A stretch of 5,824 bases of DNA from Candidatus Poribacteria bacterium (lineage in GTDB: Bacteria; Poribacteria; DTPJ01; WJIO01): assembly GCA_014730235.1 (NCBI GenBank), contig WJIO01000094.1, positions 1 through 5,824 of the forward strand, given 5' to 3'. Position 1 is the first letter of the stretch, and the number at the start of each line of letters is the position of its first letter. Shown here in pieces: positions 1-5,010 of this stretch. Position numbers and translations under genes: made by a program. Below the pieces are notes generated by a model that was not told the origin of the DNA, ran no database searches, and worked only from the letters and a program-made list of their open reading frames with translations.

Positions 1-171
1 ATCCAAATTGCCAGTACCATCAGGCATATAGACAGACCAACCCGCGACCGGATCATAAGTCCAGACAGAATCGTATTCTGTATCAATGCTGGATAATACT
101 ACATTGGGATCAGGATTTAATGGGTTTAGAGGAAATGAGACAAGATTCCAACCTGTTTCTAAACTATAGGC
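1..171 (-). other. Start of WNLVS-type module, shared with the neighbouring protein
   Basis: Residues 1614-1670 read from AYSLETGWNLVSFPL through VVLSSI and YDSVWTYDP to GNLD. In the WD40 protein the equivalent run is LPATWNLVSMPL, ILSSI, FDSVWTYEP and GNLN. Twenty-plus positions match, so the modules are homologous. By comparison with the neighbour, roughly 110 more residues are expected beyond the left edge before the stop. Confidence 0.8.
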
Positions 172-3100
172 TGGTTGTCCTGACAACTCAACAGTTTTAT
201 CAACAGTTCCATCGTTGTTCTCATCCACCACCAGATTAACCTGAGTAGTGCCTAAGTTTGTCCAGTCATCTACCTGTATTATATGGCTTTCGTTGGAGCC
301 AATTGTGATATTGCCAGCGTAGAATAATCCGCCCTGTTCCCCTATCTCCTCCAGTATAAGGTCATAAGTTTTCGGATTTCCTAGATTTACATATTCCATC
401 TGCGTATTTTCTGACTTAACCATAAAAGTGGATGTTTCACCAGCCCATAGATTTGTATTGGCAACAGTAAAGACCCGACTCGAATACTCAAGTTCTTTAG
501 CTATCTTTACAGAATATGTTTTCTCTGAGTCATTAGTTGAGTATGTGACTGCATTTCCATCCGGACTAACTGTAACCTGATCCTGAGTTGACGAATTGAC
601 TGTAGCACCAATAACCTGGATTAGTGAATCATCATAAAACAGATGGATATTTACATTACCTGTATCTGTTCCATTGATATATGTAGTATATGATATATCA
701 TCAGCAAGAATATAAGACTCAGGGAAATCATCCAAAGTCTCATCAGAAGTACCTATATTGGAAATTAGTGTAATTGGTCCAGAATTAGGAATATTATCCC
801 ACCATATTCCATCCCTTAAACCTAATTCTCTGCCTTCAGAATCTACAAATAGTAAATTACCAGAACCTGTGATTGATTTAATATTAGGAATCTCTGGTTC
901 TATAAAATCTGGTGGTATTTTGTCATAACCAATATGAACCAATTCTGGATCACTATCATGATCCTGACATCCCCATACAGTAGATCCGTTTTGTAATTCG
1001 TATTCACCCCATACTAGCCAACCGTCTATATCTGTCATATCTTCAAAGTAATTTACTACATCTTCAGATCCATTATATCTACAACTATTATGCTGTGTAT
1101 CAAATTCAATAAAGCAATTTTCTTCACCTGGATGGTTGGGATCATAACAATATACTTTTGCATAATCATTATCAGAATATTTTATGATTTTATATGGAAC
1201 AATGGAATGGCCGTGCCATTTACCGTTTACCATCCAGCTAATTGTTATCATCATTGGATCAAACCAGTCTTGCACTATTGATTTCTTAATACTATCTTCA
1301 TTACCATTTTCATATATTATGTTTGGTTCATCCCCAAATATATAGAGTTCCTCTGAATCAACACCCACTTGTTTACGAATGAGTCTTTGTCTTATATGAT
1401 AGGATGCTATAAAATCGTGAGTATTTTCTATATAATCCCCGAATATGTTTTGTTTAAAATCCCAATCACTATATTCACTAATACGAATATCATATGGATG
1501 TTTATTACCAAGCACCCAGGCATTATTCTCTAGGTTATTTACAGTGTTTTTATAAAACAATATACTTGTTGATGATATACCAAAACAAAATCCTTTAGTC
1601 TTAATTCCTAAATCTTTAATATATTCTTCCCAATATTCCTCTGCAGTATATCTTTTAATTTCTTTATTAATGGTGTAATCCTCCTCAATTTTTGTCTTTT
1701 CCTTACCATATACGTTGCTGAAAATTTCCCAATCAATTTCAGACTTATAACCATCAAACCAGAAGGGATTATTAAATTGGGCATAATAATTATTGCCAAA
1801 CTGGTATCCATTGTGATTAGGCCTGAAACCAGTATCAGCTACCAAAAAGGAAGTCTCCTCTGACCATTCCGACCACGCGCCATGATTGTCCTGGTATCTT
1901 ACATGCCAGTAATAAATCTCACCGCATTCCAATATATAATTCCCTAATACGGACGGAATAGTGATTTGAGGCACCACATCATAGGACCTAATGCCGTAAA
2001 CAAGGCCATTAGTATAATCTTTAGGAATGGTTGCTATTTCCCATTCACTACTGAAATAAGTATCACCTGAATCAGGATCAGAGAATAATGACGCCTTAAG
2101 AGTAGGTGTAAGGGAAGTTAAACCACCCTCTCCCGGTGATTCATTAACTGGTTTATCCGGACGATGATTAACGAAAACACTTTTATACGCATGATTATTT
2201 GTTTCATCAGATTCAGCTATGGCATTATCAGGATCAATAACCACATAAATATCATGATTACCCCCTTTGCCATCTGTAAACCATTCTATATTACTGCTCC
2301 TGCTATCATTACCCGGGATACCAATGCTGTTGATTGTGCAGTCACCAAACGATATACCACCTGAAGCCGGATCTCCGTCATAGAAGCGCACCAGAACGTT
2401 ATTTCCTGAATTAGCATCACCGTTGTTATGGATGGTTGCTGTAATGCTGACTTTCTCACCTTCCACTGGTTCTTCTGGTAAAAATACTATATCTGTTTCA
2501 CTCAAAGTAAGATCCGGTAATGCTCCTGTATTAAAAGAAGTTTCTTCTGACCATTCTGACCAAGCACCACTATTATCTCTATACCTTACATGCCAATAGT
2601 AAGTAGTATCAAACTCCAATACATTAGATGGTATACTAAGTTGGGTTAGATAAGCATAGGAGCGAATACCATAGACAAAACCCATGGAATAATCACCGGA
2701 GATGGTGCTTATTTCCCAGTCGGTCAAGATATGAGTGCTGTTCGGATCAGGATCGAGAAATTCGGAAGTTATAAGAGTCGGAGTAACGGATGTTATACCT
2801 TCGTTTTCTGGTGACACATTGGTCGGTTTATATGGAGATTGATTAAAATTAATAGTATATGGATAATCTGGTGTCCCGCTATAATTGCCTACACCAAGAT
2901 CATCCTGAGCAAAGATATAGTATTCTACCCCATCGTATGTTGTATAACTTGCAGGAATTACAGCCTGGTAATTATTGCCAGAGGAAAAAGCCATTTCGGC
3001 TTCCTGATAAAGTAGCTGTCCTGCTTTTCTGTAGAATAGTTTTGCTAAGACCAGTTGATTTGTGTTGTCTGTAATCTCTGCGTTAATAGTAATATCGGAA

Positions 3101-5010
3101 TTTATTAGTGAATTACTAATTGGTGTGTGATTAATCTGGGGAGCAACATTGGGTAAGATAGCCAATTGAAAGGGTTTATCGCTGGGATTCACAGACGGAT
3201 CAGATACAGTGCTTTGTCCGTCAGTAGCTGTAATGTAATAGTCCAATCCCGGAGTATTTATATCATTTCCAGGAATGATTCCCTCCCATATATTTCCTGA
3301 AGTATTGGTCATATCAACAGCAGTATATACTGGATTTGATGTATTTCGATAATAAAGCTTAGCACCTTGAATATAAGGTTCATAGTTGTCAATTATTTCA
3401 ACCTTTATTGTAAACTGTGTTCCTTCTGCCCATGATTGATTATGCAGAGCCAATGTGTCTTGAGTACGTTCAATTTTAGGCGCAGAACCAGGCATATAAG
3501 AACCAAAGGCCGATGCCTGGTTTCCCTGATAATTAACTACTACTTCAATATTTCGTTCTACCCCGTTTAAATCAGGATCACTCGATTTGTAGCGTATAAG
3601 GTAGGTATTAGCTACTCCAGATGAAATATAATCAAGTATTTCATCAAATGGACTGTATATATCAAAATATTGACCATTGGTTTGTTCAGTAATAACGCCA
3701 TAATCAGAAATGGCATGTGAATCATTTAAATCTATTAGCGAAAAGTTTGTAATTGAATTTATCTGCAAAATAGATATTGTTTCATTTTGGTTATAATTAC
3801 CATAATTACTATTATCTGTAGGAGTTTCATCAGTTATCAATATAAAAACCTTTTGCGCACCTGGACGGAAATTAAAATTGATTGTTGATTGATATAAAGC
3901 ATCCCATCCCGGTTCAAAATTCCCATCTGTGCGGTTTCTTTTCCAAACAGTTTCCTTGAAATAGTCTATATCTTTGGTTAGATTCCCATTATCCTCGATA
4001 ATTGGGTAACCATTATTACTTCCTGCTCCAAAACGACATAAACCCAGCAAAAAATCAATTTCTGAATCTGCTAGATTATCGACAAACTTAATCATATTAT
4101 CTTCAACTGTAGCTATCTCATCATCCATGCTTCCGCTGTTATCCATTAAGAAGACTACATCTGTCAAACGAGAACCGGCACCAATATCAGGGGGAGTTAC
4201 TTCAAAATAATCTGTTTGTAAAGCTCCATTTTCATATAGTATGAAGTTAGATTGATTTAATTCAGGCTCTCCCAGACCAAGTGTATTCACCACAGTATTC
4301 ATATAGACAAAGGGAAAATTCTGGGGATTAAGACTTACCAATGCTATCTCAAGCGGTTTAGGCTCATAAATTGCAATATCAATATCATCAATATACCAAC
4401 CTGAATAAGTATTAGATGAATCTGAATATATCTGGAAGGCTAAACGAATCGTTTTTTCAGCATAGGAATTAATATCAATTACTGTTTCACGCCAATCGCT
4501 GCTTCCTGTGCTTGCTCCAATATTTGTCCATGTGCTACCATCATCAATTGAAATCTTTATTCGACCATAATCATAACTGCTTTCGAGTCTGAACCACTCC
4601 CAAAATTCAATTACCAATCTTGATGAAGGGTAATTCAAAGAAGGTAGATCTATACTTGGGCTTATTAGATAATCATCGACATTATTGGGATAGTTTCCCG
4701 ATAGATTGGTTGCAGCGCAATTGGAAGAAGAATAAGCATTATTTGGTCCACTGGTTGGTTTTCCTGTTTCCCAGCATCCGTTTATAGACCACATTCCGCC
4801 TCCAGTTTCAAAATCCTCCTTTAAAATATATTCTACTGCTGATATGTTGCTGTTATTAACTGCGCTTAGTGAAGAACTGTTGCGTATCTTTGGTACAGGG
4901 ATAATTTGTCCCTTTTCTGTAGATATATCATCAACAGCATACACATTTAATGAGAAAAATATTGACACGAGAAACAGAATTGCTAATACAAATTGAATTT
5001 TGCTAAACAT
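1..5010 (-). CDS. Giant secreted multidomain protein: VWA, Ig/FN3, CARDB and probable cysteine peptidase (3' end missing)
   Basis: The frame is open for 1670 codons from the ATG at 5010 to the left edge with no stop, so the C-terminus lies outside the window. The start is supported by AAAGGA six bases upstream and by a signal peptide directly after it. Approximate order by residue: signal peptide 1-25; InhA/MAM-like jelly roll 65-217 (EDFETG ... SGWYIDDIDI); VWA 283-476 with MIDAS DNSGS at 290-294; Ig-like modules 508-617 and 622-722; FN3-like module A 724-826; CARDB-like 831-949; FN3-like module B 951-1056; cysteine-peptidase-like 1085-1345; beta-rich region 1371-1610; start of a WNLVS module from 1614. 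The protein is predicted to be exported and to act at the cell surface or outside the cell in adhesion, binding and possibly proteolysis. The reading frame and export are seen directly; the roles are inferred from domain families. No single characterised protein with this order is recognised. Confidence 0.95.
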   Translation of the reverse strand, partial: MFSKIQFVLAILFLVSIFFSLNVYAVDDISTEKGQIIPVPKIRNSSSLSAVNNSNISAVEYILKEDFETGGGMWSINGCWETGKPTSGPNNAYSSSNCAATNLSGNYPNNVDDYLISPSIDLPSLNYPSSRLVIEFWEWFRLESSYDYGRIKISIDDGSTWTNIGASTGSSDWRETVIDINSYAEKTIRLAFQIYSDSSNTYSGWYIDDIDIAIYEPKPLEIALVSLNPQNFPFVYMNTVVNTLGLGEPELNQSNFILYENGALQTDYFEVTPPDIGAGSRLTDVVFLMDNSGSMDDEIATVEDNMIKFVDNLADSEIDFLLGLCRFGAGSNNGYPIIEDNGNLTKDIDYFKETVWKRNRTDGNFEPGWDALYQSTINFNFRPGAQKVFILITDETPTDNSNYGNYNQNETISILQINSITNFSLIDLNDSHAISDYGVITEQTNGQYFDIYSPFDEILDYISSGVANTYLIRYKSSDPDLNGVERNIEVVVNYQGNQASAFGSYMPGSAPKIERTQDTLALHNQSWAEGTQFTIKVEIIDNYEPYIQGAKLYYRNTSNPVYTAVDMTNTSGNIWEGIIPGNDINTPGLDYYITATDGQSTVSDPSVNPSDKPFQLAILPNVAPQINHTPISNSLINSDITINAEITDNTNQLVLAKLFYRKAGQLLYQEAEMAFSSGNNYQAVIPASYTTYDGVEYYIFAQDDLGVGNYSGTPDYPYTINFNQSPYKPTNVSPENEGITSVTPTLITSEFLDPDPNSTHILTDWEISTISGDYSMGFVYGIRSYAYLTQLSIPSNVLEFDTTYYWHVRYRDNSGAWSEWSEETSFNTGALPDLTLSETDIVFLPEEPVEGEKVSITATIHNNGDANSGNNVLVRFYDGDPASGGISFGDCTINSIGIPGNDSRSSNIEWFTDGKGGNHDIYVVIDPDNAIAESDETNNHAYKSVFVNHRPDKPVNESPGEGGLTSLTPTLKASLFSDPDSGDTYFSSEWEIATIPKDYTNGLVYGIRSYDVVPQITIPSVLGNYILECGEIYYWHVRYQDNHGAWSEWSEETSFLVADTGFRPNHNGYQFGNNYYAQFNNPFWFDGYKSEIDWEIFSNVYGKEKTKIEEDYTINKEIKRYTAEEYWEEYIKDLGIKTKGFCFGISSTSILFYKNTVNNLENNAWVLGNKHPYDIRISEYSDWDFKQNIFGDYIENTHDFIASYHIRQRLIRKQVGVDSEELYIFGDEPNIIYENGNEDSIKKSIVQDWFDPMMITISWMVNGKWHGHSIVPYKIIKYSDNDYAKVYCYDPNHPGEENCFIEFDTQHNSCRYNGSEDVVNYFEDMTDIDGWLVWGEYELQNGSTVWGCQDHDSDPELVHIGYDKIPPDFIEPEIPNIKSITGSGNLLFVDSEGRELGLRDGIWWDNIPNSGPITLISNIGTSDETLDDFPESYILADDISYTTYINGTDTGNVNIHLFYDDSLIQVIGATVNSSTQDQVTVSPDGNAVTYSTNDSEKTYSVKIAKELEYSSRVFTVANTNLWAGETSTFMVKSENTQMEYVNLGNPKTYDLILEEIGEQGGLFYAGNITIGSNESHIIQVDDWTNLGTTQVNLVVDENNDGTVDKTVELSGQPAYSLETGWNLVSFPLNPLNPDPNVVLSSIDTEYDSVWTYDPVAGWSVYMPDGTGNLD
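181..900 (-). other. Beta-rich region after the peptidase, with calcium-loop-like motif
   Basis: Residues 1371-1610 begin with SITGSGNLLFVDSEGRELGLRDG, resembling the SPVxLxVxDPxGRxxG modules that often follow papain-like domains in exported proteins. The end reads HIIQVDDWTNLG and then VVDENNDGTVDKTVEL. Asp1596, Asn1598, Asp1600, Gly1601 and Asp1604 fit a D-x-N-x-D-G-x-x-D calcium loop. The middle, from 1430 to 1560, is probably one or two beta-sandwiches of no family I recognise. Calcium binding is inferred. Confidence 0.5.
976..1758 (-). other. Probable papain/C39-like cysteine peptidase domain
   Basis: Residues about 1085-1345. Cys1142 lies in KGFCFGISSTSILFY, a helix-start pattern like the GxCyGM(S/A)xT motif of papain-fold peptidases in secreted bacterial and archaeal proteins. 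His1268 lies in KWHGHSIVPYKI, and Asp1290 in VYCYDPNHPGEENC, matching the family succession GHxVvxY...vYDPNxPG. Asn1292 is an alternative third residue. The 125-residue Cys-to-His distance is typical of the fold. No obvious propeptide or upstream oxyanion Gln is seen, so activity is uncertain. It might instead be a non-catalytic relative used for binding. The flanking beta modules place it outside the cell. The DNA here is about 23-33% GC in the lines counted (1441-1740), below most of the gene. Confidence 0.55.
1843..2160 (-). repeat. FN3-like module B (second copy of an internal duplication)
   Basis: Residues 951-1056 match module A (724-826) throughout, with the WSEWSEETSF end displaced by 229 codons (687 bp) and the KPxNxSP start displaced by 225, so about four residues were gained. 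The lengthening falls in the loop around PSVLGNYILECGEIYYW. It joins directly to the peptidase-like section. Confidence 0.85.
2164..2520 (-). other. CARDB-like module
   Basis: Residues 831-949 start LPDLTLSETDIVFLPEEPVEGEKVSITATIHN and continue NNGDANSGNNVLVRFYDG, then GGNHDIYVVIDPDNAIAESDETNNHAYKS. The order PDLxxxxxxI, VxITATIxNxGxxxxxNVxVxFYDG, and IDPxNxIxExDExNN is the hallmark of the CARDB (cell adhesion related domain in bacteria) family, a beta-sandwich found in surface and secreted proteins. It sits exactly between the two FN3-like copies. Confidence 0.85.
2533..2841 (-). repeat. FN3-like module A (first copy of an internal duplication)
   Basis: Residues 724-826 run from KPTNVSPENEG through DWEISTI, GFVYGIRSY and YYWHVRYRDNSGAWSEWS to EETSF. 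Module B later in the same protein has KPVNESP, EWEIATI, GLVYGIRSY, YYWHVRYQDNHGAWSEWS and EETSF in the same order, so the two are clear copies. The DNA is also similar near the 3' end (a GACCATTC-centred stretch). Fibronectin type III folds of this kind serve as spacers and binding modules in secreted bacterial enzymes. Confidence 0.85.
2845..3147 (-). other. Ig-like module 2
   Basis: Residues 622-722 repeat the pattern of the preceding module: DITINAEITDNTNQLVLAKL, FYRKAG, MAFSSGNNYQAVIPA, then VEYYIFAQDDLG. The match of KLFYR, G-N-x-Y and EYYIxAxD with module 1 (KLYYR, GNIW, DYYITATD) supports two tandem copies of one fold acting as a spacer or binding arm. Confidence 0.6.
3160..3489 (-). 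other. Ig-like module 1
   Basis: Residues 508-617 contain FTIKVEIIDNYEPYIQGAKLYYRN, a central MTNTSGNIWEGIIPG and a final LDYYITATDG. This is the usual bacterial Ig/FN3-like pattern of a strand naming a 'response' (LYYR), a bulge with G-x-W/Y, and YYIxAxD. Function is probably structural or binding; no catalytic residues are seen. It is related to the next module at the level of strand pattern, less so in residue identity. Confidence 0.6.
3583..4164 (-). other. von Willebrand factor A domain with intact MIDAS
   Basis: Residues 283-476 begin TDVVFLMDNSGSMDDEI. Asp290, Ser292 and Ser294 give the DxSxS metal-ion-dependent adhesion site; Thr361 in RNRTDGNFEPGWDAL is a candidate for the third loop, and Asp394 in VFILITDETPTD for the fourth. 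The module ends near GVANTYLIRY. VWA domains of this type bind protein ligands through a divalent metal and are frequent in surface adhesins. The short beta segment before it (residues 218-282) looks like the N-terminal companion found with many bacterial VWA proteins. Metal binding is inferred from motif retention. Confidence 0.85.
4360..4818 (-). other. Jelly-roll module, immune inhibitor A/MAM-like
   Basis: Residues 65-217 start EDFETGGGMWS and end SGWYIDDIDIAIYEP. Between them come DDYLISPSIDLPS, RLVIEFWEWF, KISIDDGSTWTNIG, and DWRETVIDINSYAEKTIRLAFQ. This succession (open with a damaged-looking ExFE, then SPxIDL, ISxDGGxxW, DLSxYAGxxxxIxFxxxSD, GWYIDDV) is the known pattern of the beta-sandwich accessory domains in M6 peptidases and many secreted proteins of Bacteroidota-like bacteria. 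Cys79 and Cys98 could pair as a disulfide. It is probably a binding module with no catalytic role. Confidence 0.75.
4936..5010 (-). other. Signal peptide (Sec type)
   Basis: Residues 1-25 begin MFSKIQ, followed by a hydrophobic core (VLAILFLVSIFFSL) and VYA before VDD. The -3 Val and -1 Ala fit signal peptidase I cleavage after Ala25. There is no lipobox cysteine, so a lipoprotein is unlikely. A single Lys in the n-region is weak but acceptable. Confidence 0.85.

Follow-up and report, generated by a model that had tools for sequence, protein, structure and literature searches.

A C39-like cysteine-peptidase-like domain in a predicted exported modular protein of a Candidatus Poribacteria bacterium

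Here we describe a domain of a 1670-residue modular protein that carries Cys, His and Asp in the order typical of C39 peptidases. We consider it probable, with some reserve, that residues 1058-1336 constitute a diverged thiol enzyme of the papain fold (clan CA) from an unnamed family, which would have Peptidase_C39/C39_2 as its nearest group and would act outside the cytoplasm by means of Cys-His-Asp. The family is recognized by the signature hGFxFxN ... GxCxG(M/I/L) ... H(x~20)YDxN. The protein lies on a contig of 5,824 bp (G000:C8), which as a whole is the stretch analysed here (the window) and belongs to a 5.5-Mb draft genome of 451 contigs.

The Cys-His-Asp domain and its family

A sequence-only reading had located Cys1142 (nt 1585-1587) in GFCFGISSTS, His1268 (1207-1209) in WHGHSIVPYKI and Asp1290 (1141-1143) in YCYDPNHPG, and all three are placed as it claimed. 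The domain span it gave, 976-1758, translates exactly into residues 1085-1345 of the open reading frame (ORF); its start, however, is too late, and the true start is near residue 1058 (FRPNHNGYQFGN). The features of the domain are as follows:

1003..1839, minus strand: C39-like papain-fold cysteine-peptidase-like domain (predicted), approximately residues 1058-1336 (family alignment, HMM, hhalign)
1792..1812, minus strand: N-terminal motif NGYQFGN, residues 1067-1073 (hGFxFxN in the family); Phe1071 and Asn1073 invariant in 11 sequences
1579..1593, minus strand: GFCFG, residues 1140-1144, with putative nucleophile Cys1142; Gly1140, Cys1142 and Gly1144 invariant in 11/11
1207..1209, minus strand: His1268, putative general base; invariant in 11/11 and aligned with the His of Peptidase_C39_2
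1135..1146, minus strand: YDPN, residues 1289-1292, with putative third residue Asp1290; Tyr1289, Asp1290 and Asn1292 invariant in 11/11

Residues 1058-1336 have no match in Pfam, NCBIfam or PHROG and no significant match among PDB sequences; against Pfam nothing appears up to E 1, PF13529 included. Direct searches with the domain against Pfam, NCBIfam, PDB sequences, genome contigs and viral contigs found no relative, nor did tblastn against plasmids and phages. Weak matches to two loci (L003 and L004, E 0.03-0.07) and to influenza haemagglutinin (E 0.07) were judged to be chance. The pattern GxCFGM had no match in genome contigs, and pattern matches in viral contigs (L007, L025, L061, L062) and genomes (L009-L011) lay in unrelated frames.

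Relatives were found by motif and through intermediates. The motif YDPN(H/Y)PG(D/E), searched in IMG/VR, led to viral-contig ORFs of 219 aa and identical sequence (L005/L006), with the blocks HGFRFPN ... GLCGGM ... NHQVVATGY ... YDPNYPGE; tblastn with this ORF reached Haloferax and Paraburkholderia plasmid proteins. The Halorientalis member was first reached by tblastn with a made-up consensus bait, and queries with natural sequences subsequently confirmed the match. The natural Halorientalis sequence retrieves Halobaculum and Natronorubrum, and the Paraburkholderia domain retrieves Microvirga. The resulting family set comprises the window and 10 relatives from haloarchaea, Paraburkholderia, Microvirga and viral contigs (L005/L014).

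In the family alignment (A2) the relatives are 13-18% identical to the window and show the same four blocks in order; the Natronorubrum copy carries the window's own GFCFGI. Ten of the 279 window positions are invariant in all 11 sequences: F1062, F1071, N1073, G1140, C1142, G1144, H1268, Y1289, D1290 and N1292. The sequence-only reading had named loss of its three residues in close homologues as evidence against it, and C1142, H1268 and D1290 are retained in every one of these divergent sequences. An HMM of the 10 relatives, built with the window left out, gave the window protein 20.8 bits, whereas none of 5000 shuffled domain copies exceeded 10.6. An HMM of the bacterial/viral-led subgroup (Haloferax, Paraburkholderia, L014 and Microvirga) gave the window 20.5 bits versus 11.0 for shuffles; an HMM of the remaining haloarchaeal members gave no separation (10.9 bits versus 11.3 for shuffles). 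In hhalign, the window alone scored 42.0 with the relatives, and the highest of 300 column-shuffled versions scored 19.4.

Several relatives likewise lie within exported or lectin-bearing proteins. Unnamed haloarchaeal exported proteins (e.g. Halorientalis MUG96_RS20740, Halobaculum P0D77_RS16065 and Natronorubrum BB347_RS16625) share hGFxFxN ... GxCxG(M/I) ... H ... YDPN with the window, and several have, by eye, N-terminal export-type signals and hydrophobic tails. They differ from it in their 13-18% identity and in having neither VWA nor CARDB; in one the domain follows a DUF5122 beta-propeller-type N-terminus, and in another it stands almost alone. In two further relatives the same domain is attached to modules that are repeated, H-type lectin in Haloferax KU306_RS16235 and repeats of the form DNLDLFVVGNDGVVYTSW in a Paraburkholderia caribensis plasmid ORF; both differ from the window in belonging to the GLCxGM subgroup and in their partner modules. 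The Paraburkholderia frame (strain MBA4, L013 1402-4797) is 1132 aa long, has about a dozen such repeats around the Cys domain, and corresponds to no gene listed in the PLSDB table. On four Halobaculum plasmids (L017 1293-2320, L019 1289-2324, L020 1284-2346 and L021 1284-2346) the neighbourhood of the family gene is conserved: two hypothetical genes of constant size (228 and 723 bp) precede it on the same strand. A stand-alone member (L014 5001-5657) occurs on two IMG/VR viral contigs, beside what appear by eye to be a sulfotransferase-like gene, glycosyltransferase-like ORFs and a terminase-like gene.

Relationship to C39 peptidases

An HMM search of the domain, as the sequence-only reading had proposed, gave no direct Pfam or NCBIfam match; homology to Peptidase_C39_2 emerged from profile-profile comparison. 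For this we used a Peptidase_C39_2 set collected from proteins of the same phylum, which itself matches the solved C39 peptidases 3ERV (E 9.7e-12), 6MPZ (E 8.9e-7) and ComA 3K8U. The family profile, window included, matched this set with a probability of 89.5% and a score of 47.6; the best of 300 column shuffles scored 16.7, and the reversed profile 10.7. Leaving the window out changed little (87.9%, score 46.0), and a smaller alignment pair gave a weaker match in the same register (50%, score 35.4). The match spans approximately 51 columns, covering the His/Asp half only, and sets His on His and the family's YDPN on the (N/A)DPN of Peptidase_C39_2; the consensus sequences run in parallel, LDDIRSVIDAGGPASVVLF ... 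AHQVLAYDYEESDDGVELHLYDPN in the family versus LDDLRRYIDNNRPPILLLR ... YHWVVAVGYDTRWNEFLIADPN in C39_2. A Cys-His-Asp order within 260 residues would mean little on its own—what raises it above chance is its invariance in 11 sequences together with a His/Asp half in register with Peptidase_C39_2.

The Cys half is less secure than the His/Asp half, and the invariant GxCxG is the main argument for it. Scored without the Cys column, the 16-column Cys block ranks 869 of 37,446 offsets. A Gln before the Cys is the usual oxyanion-hole residue of C39, although it is not universal in the superfamily. In the 11-sequence family alignment, none of the eight positions that precede the Cys shows a conserved Gln. 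The structure of LahT calls the role of this Gln into question, and its triad, Cys27-His101-Asp117, is carried on helix 1 and strands 4 and 5 (PMC6363468); the order Cys-His-Asp is that of the window domain.

With Peptidase_C39_2 (PF13529, e.g. PDB 3ERV) the family shares the helix-strand IDxxxPxxVxL, H-V-V-x-x-Y and (Y/N/A)DPN, all in register, and the Cys-His-Asp order. Unlike that group, it lies below detection by the Pfam model, has an extra N-terminal hGFxFxN and lacks a conserved Gln before the Cys; furthermore, the window domain has 126 residues between Cys and His, GxCxG instead of CGP/CxA, and a place within a 1670-aa scaffold that is predicted to be exported. Because Pfam gives no match up to E 1, we describe the domain as related to PF13529 and not as a member of it. 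The peptidase C39 domains of AMS/PCAT and ComA transporters (PF03412; LahT, PDB 6MPZ) share the Cys-His-Asp order, the His at a strand and the Asp in a DP motif; in contrast to them, the window domain is not fused to an ABC transporter, is part of a predicted exported protein, and has no leader-peptide substrate in view. The best PDB match of the family profile is a UfSP, in the region of the DP motif, at a non-significant E of 0.11. UfSP and Atg4 (C78/C54) are papain-fold proteases that use the order Cys-Asp-His with a DPH box (PMC10318531), whereas in the family the motif is DPN and the His comes earlier.

In several C39_2 loci of the phylum (L067, L077 and similar) the segment before the Cys, FDPxANGYIPHxGGNDF, resembles by eye the FxPxxHGFxFxN of the family; this likeness may reflect a closer evolutionary link between the two.

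The surrounding protein and its modules

The domain is one of several modules in the large ORF:

1..5010, minus strand: ORF of the large, predicted exported modular protein, 1670 aa, 3' end lost at the contig end (ORF reading)
4936..5010, minus strand: putative Sec signal peptide, residues 1-25 (MFSKIQFVLAILFLVSIFFSLNVYA), by eye; AGGAAA upstream of the ATG
4369..4821, minus strand: choice-of-anchor J / InhA-MAM-like domain, residues 64-214 (NCBIfam NF038128, E 3.3e-11, above cut-off; Pfam PF20773, E 6.3e-9)
2848..4365, minus strand: scaffold block, residues 216-721 (VWA + FN3-like), with a second copy in the genome (G000:C252)
3796..4161, minus strand: VWA domain, residues 284-405, with DNSGS (MIDAS-type DxSxS) (Pfam PF00092, E 5.3e-8, above cut-off)
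2518..2832, minus strand: first Ig/FN3-like module, approximately residues 727-831 (Pfam PF25788 Ig_Rha78A_N, E 5.3e-13)
2188..2517, minus strand: CARDB domain, residues 832-941 (Pfam PF07705, E 8.1e-16)
1852..2169, minus strand: second Ig/FN3-like module, approximately residues 948-1053, limits approximate (second PF25788 stretch; repeats the first module by eye)
1..171, minus strand: start of the C-terminal GWNLVSFPL module, residues 1614-1670, cut by the contig end
5055..5822, minus strand: upstream ORF, 255 aa visible, 5' end open, with WD40-type repeats and then a GWNLVS module (ORF list, Pfam)

The VWA, CARDB and Ig/FN3-like modules named by the sequence-only reading are genuine Pfam matches, to which NCBIfam adds the N-terminal choice-of-anchor J domain. 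The VWA domain scores 33.7 bits against a cut-off of 23.8, and its DNSGS corresponds to the DxSxS of MIDAS. The PF25788 match falls in two stretches, the best at residues 792-831, and the outer limit of the first module was estimated by eye. Export is predicted from the N-terminal signal peptide, read by eye; no sorting signal and no membrane or lipid anchor is visible in the 1670-aa ORF, which runs off the contig before its C-terminus.

The GWNLVSFPL module at the C-terminal end is 49% identical over 57 residues to that of the upstream ORF. Since this ORF lies on the same strand, 44 bases away, and has the same GWNLVS ending, the two genes may belong to one transcript, with a C-terminal module in common. 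Copies of the tail module that are 94-95% identical occur on contigs C80 and C83 (L057 2221-2721; L058 2-427), which probably explains the contig break; the C80 copy shows how the tail ends, and it does so without an evident anchor.

The scaffold also recurs within the genome. Residues 216-721 are 62% identical over 508 columns to a paralogue on contig G000:C252, and the match stops at residue 721, after which the paralogue reads FSDFTFIHITDVHIGW, similar by eye to motif 1 of calcineurin-like metallophosphoesterases; the approximately 60 residues left after the scaffold contain no Pfam domain, and the frame stops beside an ORF with an rve integrase core. In the wider locus (L056, G000:C252:5500-10042, at 2173-4292) the paralogue runs into FTFIHITDVHIGW and ends beside the rve ORF, as though an insertion sequence had disrupted the gene. 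The Cys domain (1003-1839) has the lowest G+C content of the gene, 31.4%, against 35-42% for the other modules, 42.1% for the module preceding it, and approximately 40% for a 60-kb sample of the genome. Three observations suggest acquisition of the Cys domain by module exchange: the two scaffold copies continue differently, the G+C content of the domain is low, and a profile search of 83 other genomes of the phylum did not detect it.

Proposed action and significance

AlphaFold2 models of the window domain alone (pLDDT 32.6) and of L014 with the window as second row (pLDDT 32.4) are too low in confidence to place residues. A papain-like fold for residues 1058-1336 is supported by homology to the family and to C39_2, rather than by a model. 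Under the action that we propose, the N-terminal signal would export the protein, and the VWA, anchor-J, Ig/FN3-like and CARDB modules would tether it to an extracytoplasmic polymer or partner. There Cys1142 of the domain would make the nucleophilic attack on a peptide or amide bond, His1268 would serve as the base, and Asp1290 would keep this His oriented. The sequence-only reading of a papain-fold, C39-like Cys-His-Asp domain in an exported VWA/Ig/CARDB protein agrees with the homology and the invariance; it went too far in function, and its idea of a protease processing neighbouring proteins was dropped for want of support. Papain-like families include non-peptidases (PMC10318531), and since transferases and dead binding domains are among their members (PMC10318531, PMC6363468), "peptidase-like" is the furthest name that is justified.

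The domain might have a papain/C39-like fold and still be no protease but an acyltransferase, an amidase, a deamidase or an enzyme of transglutaminase type; an acyltransferase, BtrH_N, is found near C39 in the superfamily (PMC10318531), the conserved Gln is missing, and the family is far from any characterized member. We regard this as unlikely, although not negligible: the closest profile match found is a peptidase group, C39_2, and the canonical Cys-His-Asp set is complete. That set also bears on a catalytically dead fold that would only bind peptides, like the C39-like domain of HlyB—a reading to which we give little weight. Inactive substrate-binding C39-like domains are known (PMC6363468), and the other modules of the protein are of binding types; however, HlyB-type domains have lost the Cys, whereas in the present family archaeal and bacterial members alike keep Cys, His and Asp unchanged, which pure binding would not need. 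Least probable is an unrelated fold in which the order of the three residues is a coincidence: no curated family matches and AlphaFold finds no confident fold (pLDDT ~32), but the scores lie far outside the shuffled and reversed controls, and it is exactly the named residues that are invariant. The domain is probably an extracellular thiol enzyme, a reading drawn from sequence comparison.

The family adds a new branch to a class of enzymes that is already known; it is not a system of a new kind. More tentatively, we see in the family (hGFxFxN-GxCxG-H-YDxN, from archaea, bacteria and viral contigs) an undescribed group of extracellular C39-like thiol enzymes, in which a catalytic cassette would sit in exported binding scaffolds—VWA/CARDB in the window, H-type lectin in Haloferax—with C-terminal modules that would be swapped among scaffolds within one genome. 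Neither Pfam nor NCBIfam has a model for the family, so that its genes either go unannotated or are labelled hypothetical, even though their products are probably exported thiol enzymes of haloarchaea and of several groups of bacteria. C39-type domains are best known from inside-facing transporters. The general picture of peptidases is unchanged; naming the signature would make the genes of the family findable, and would show C39-type domains also as parts of extracellular modular proteins.
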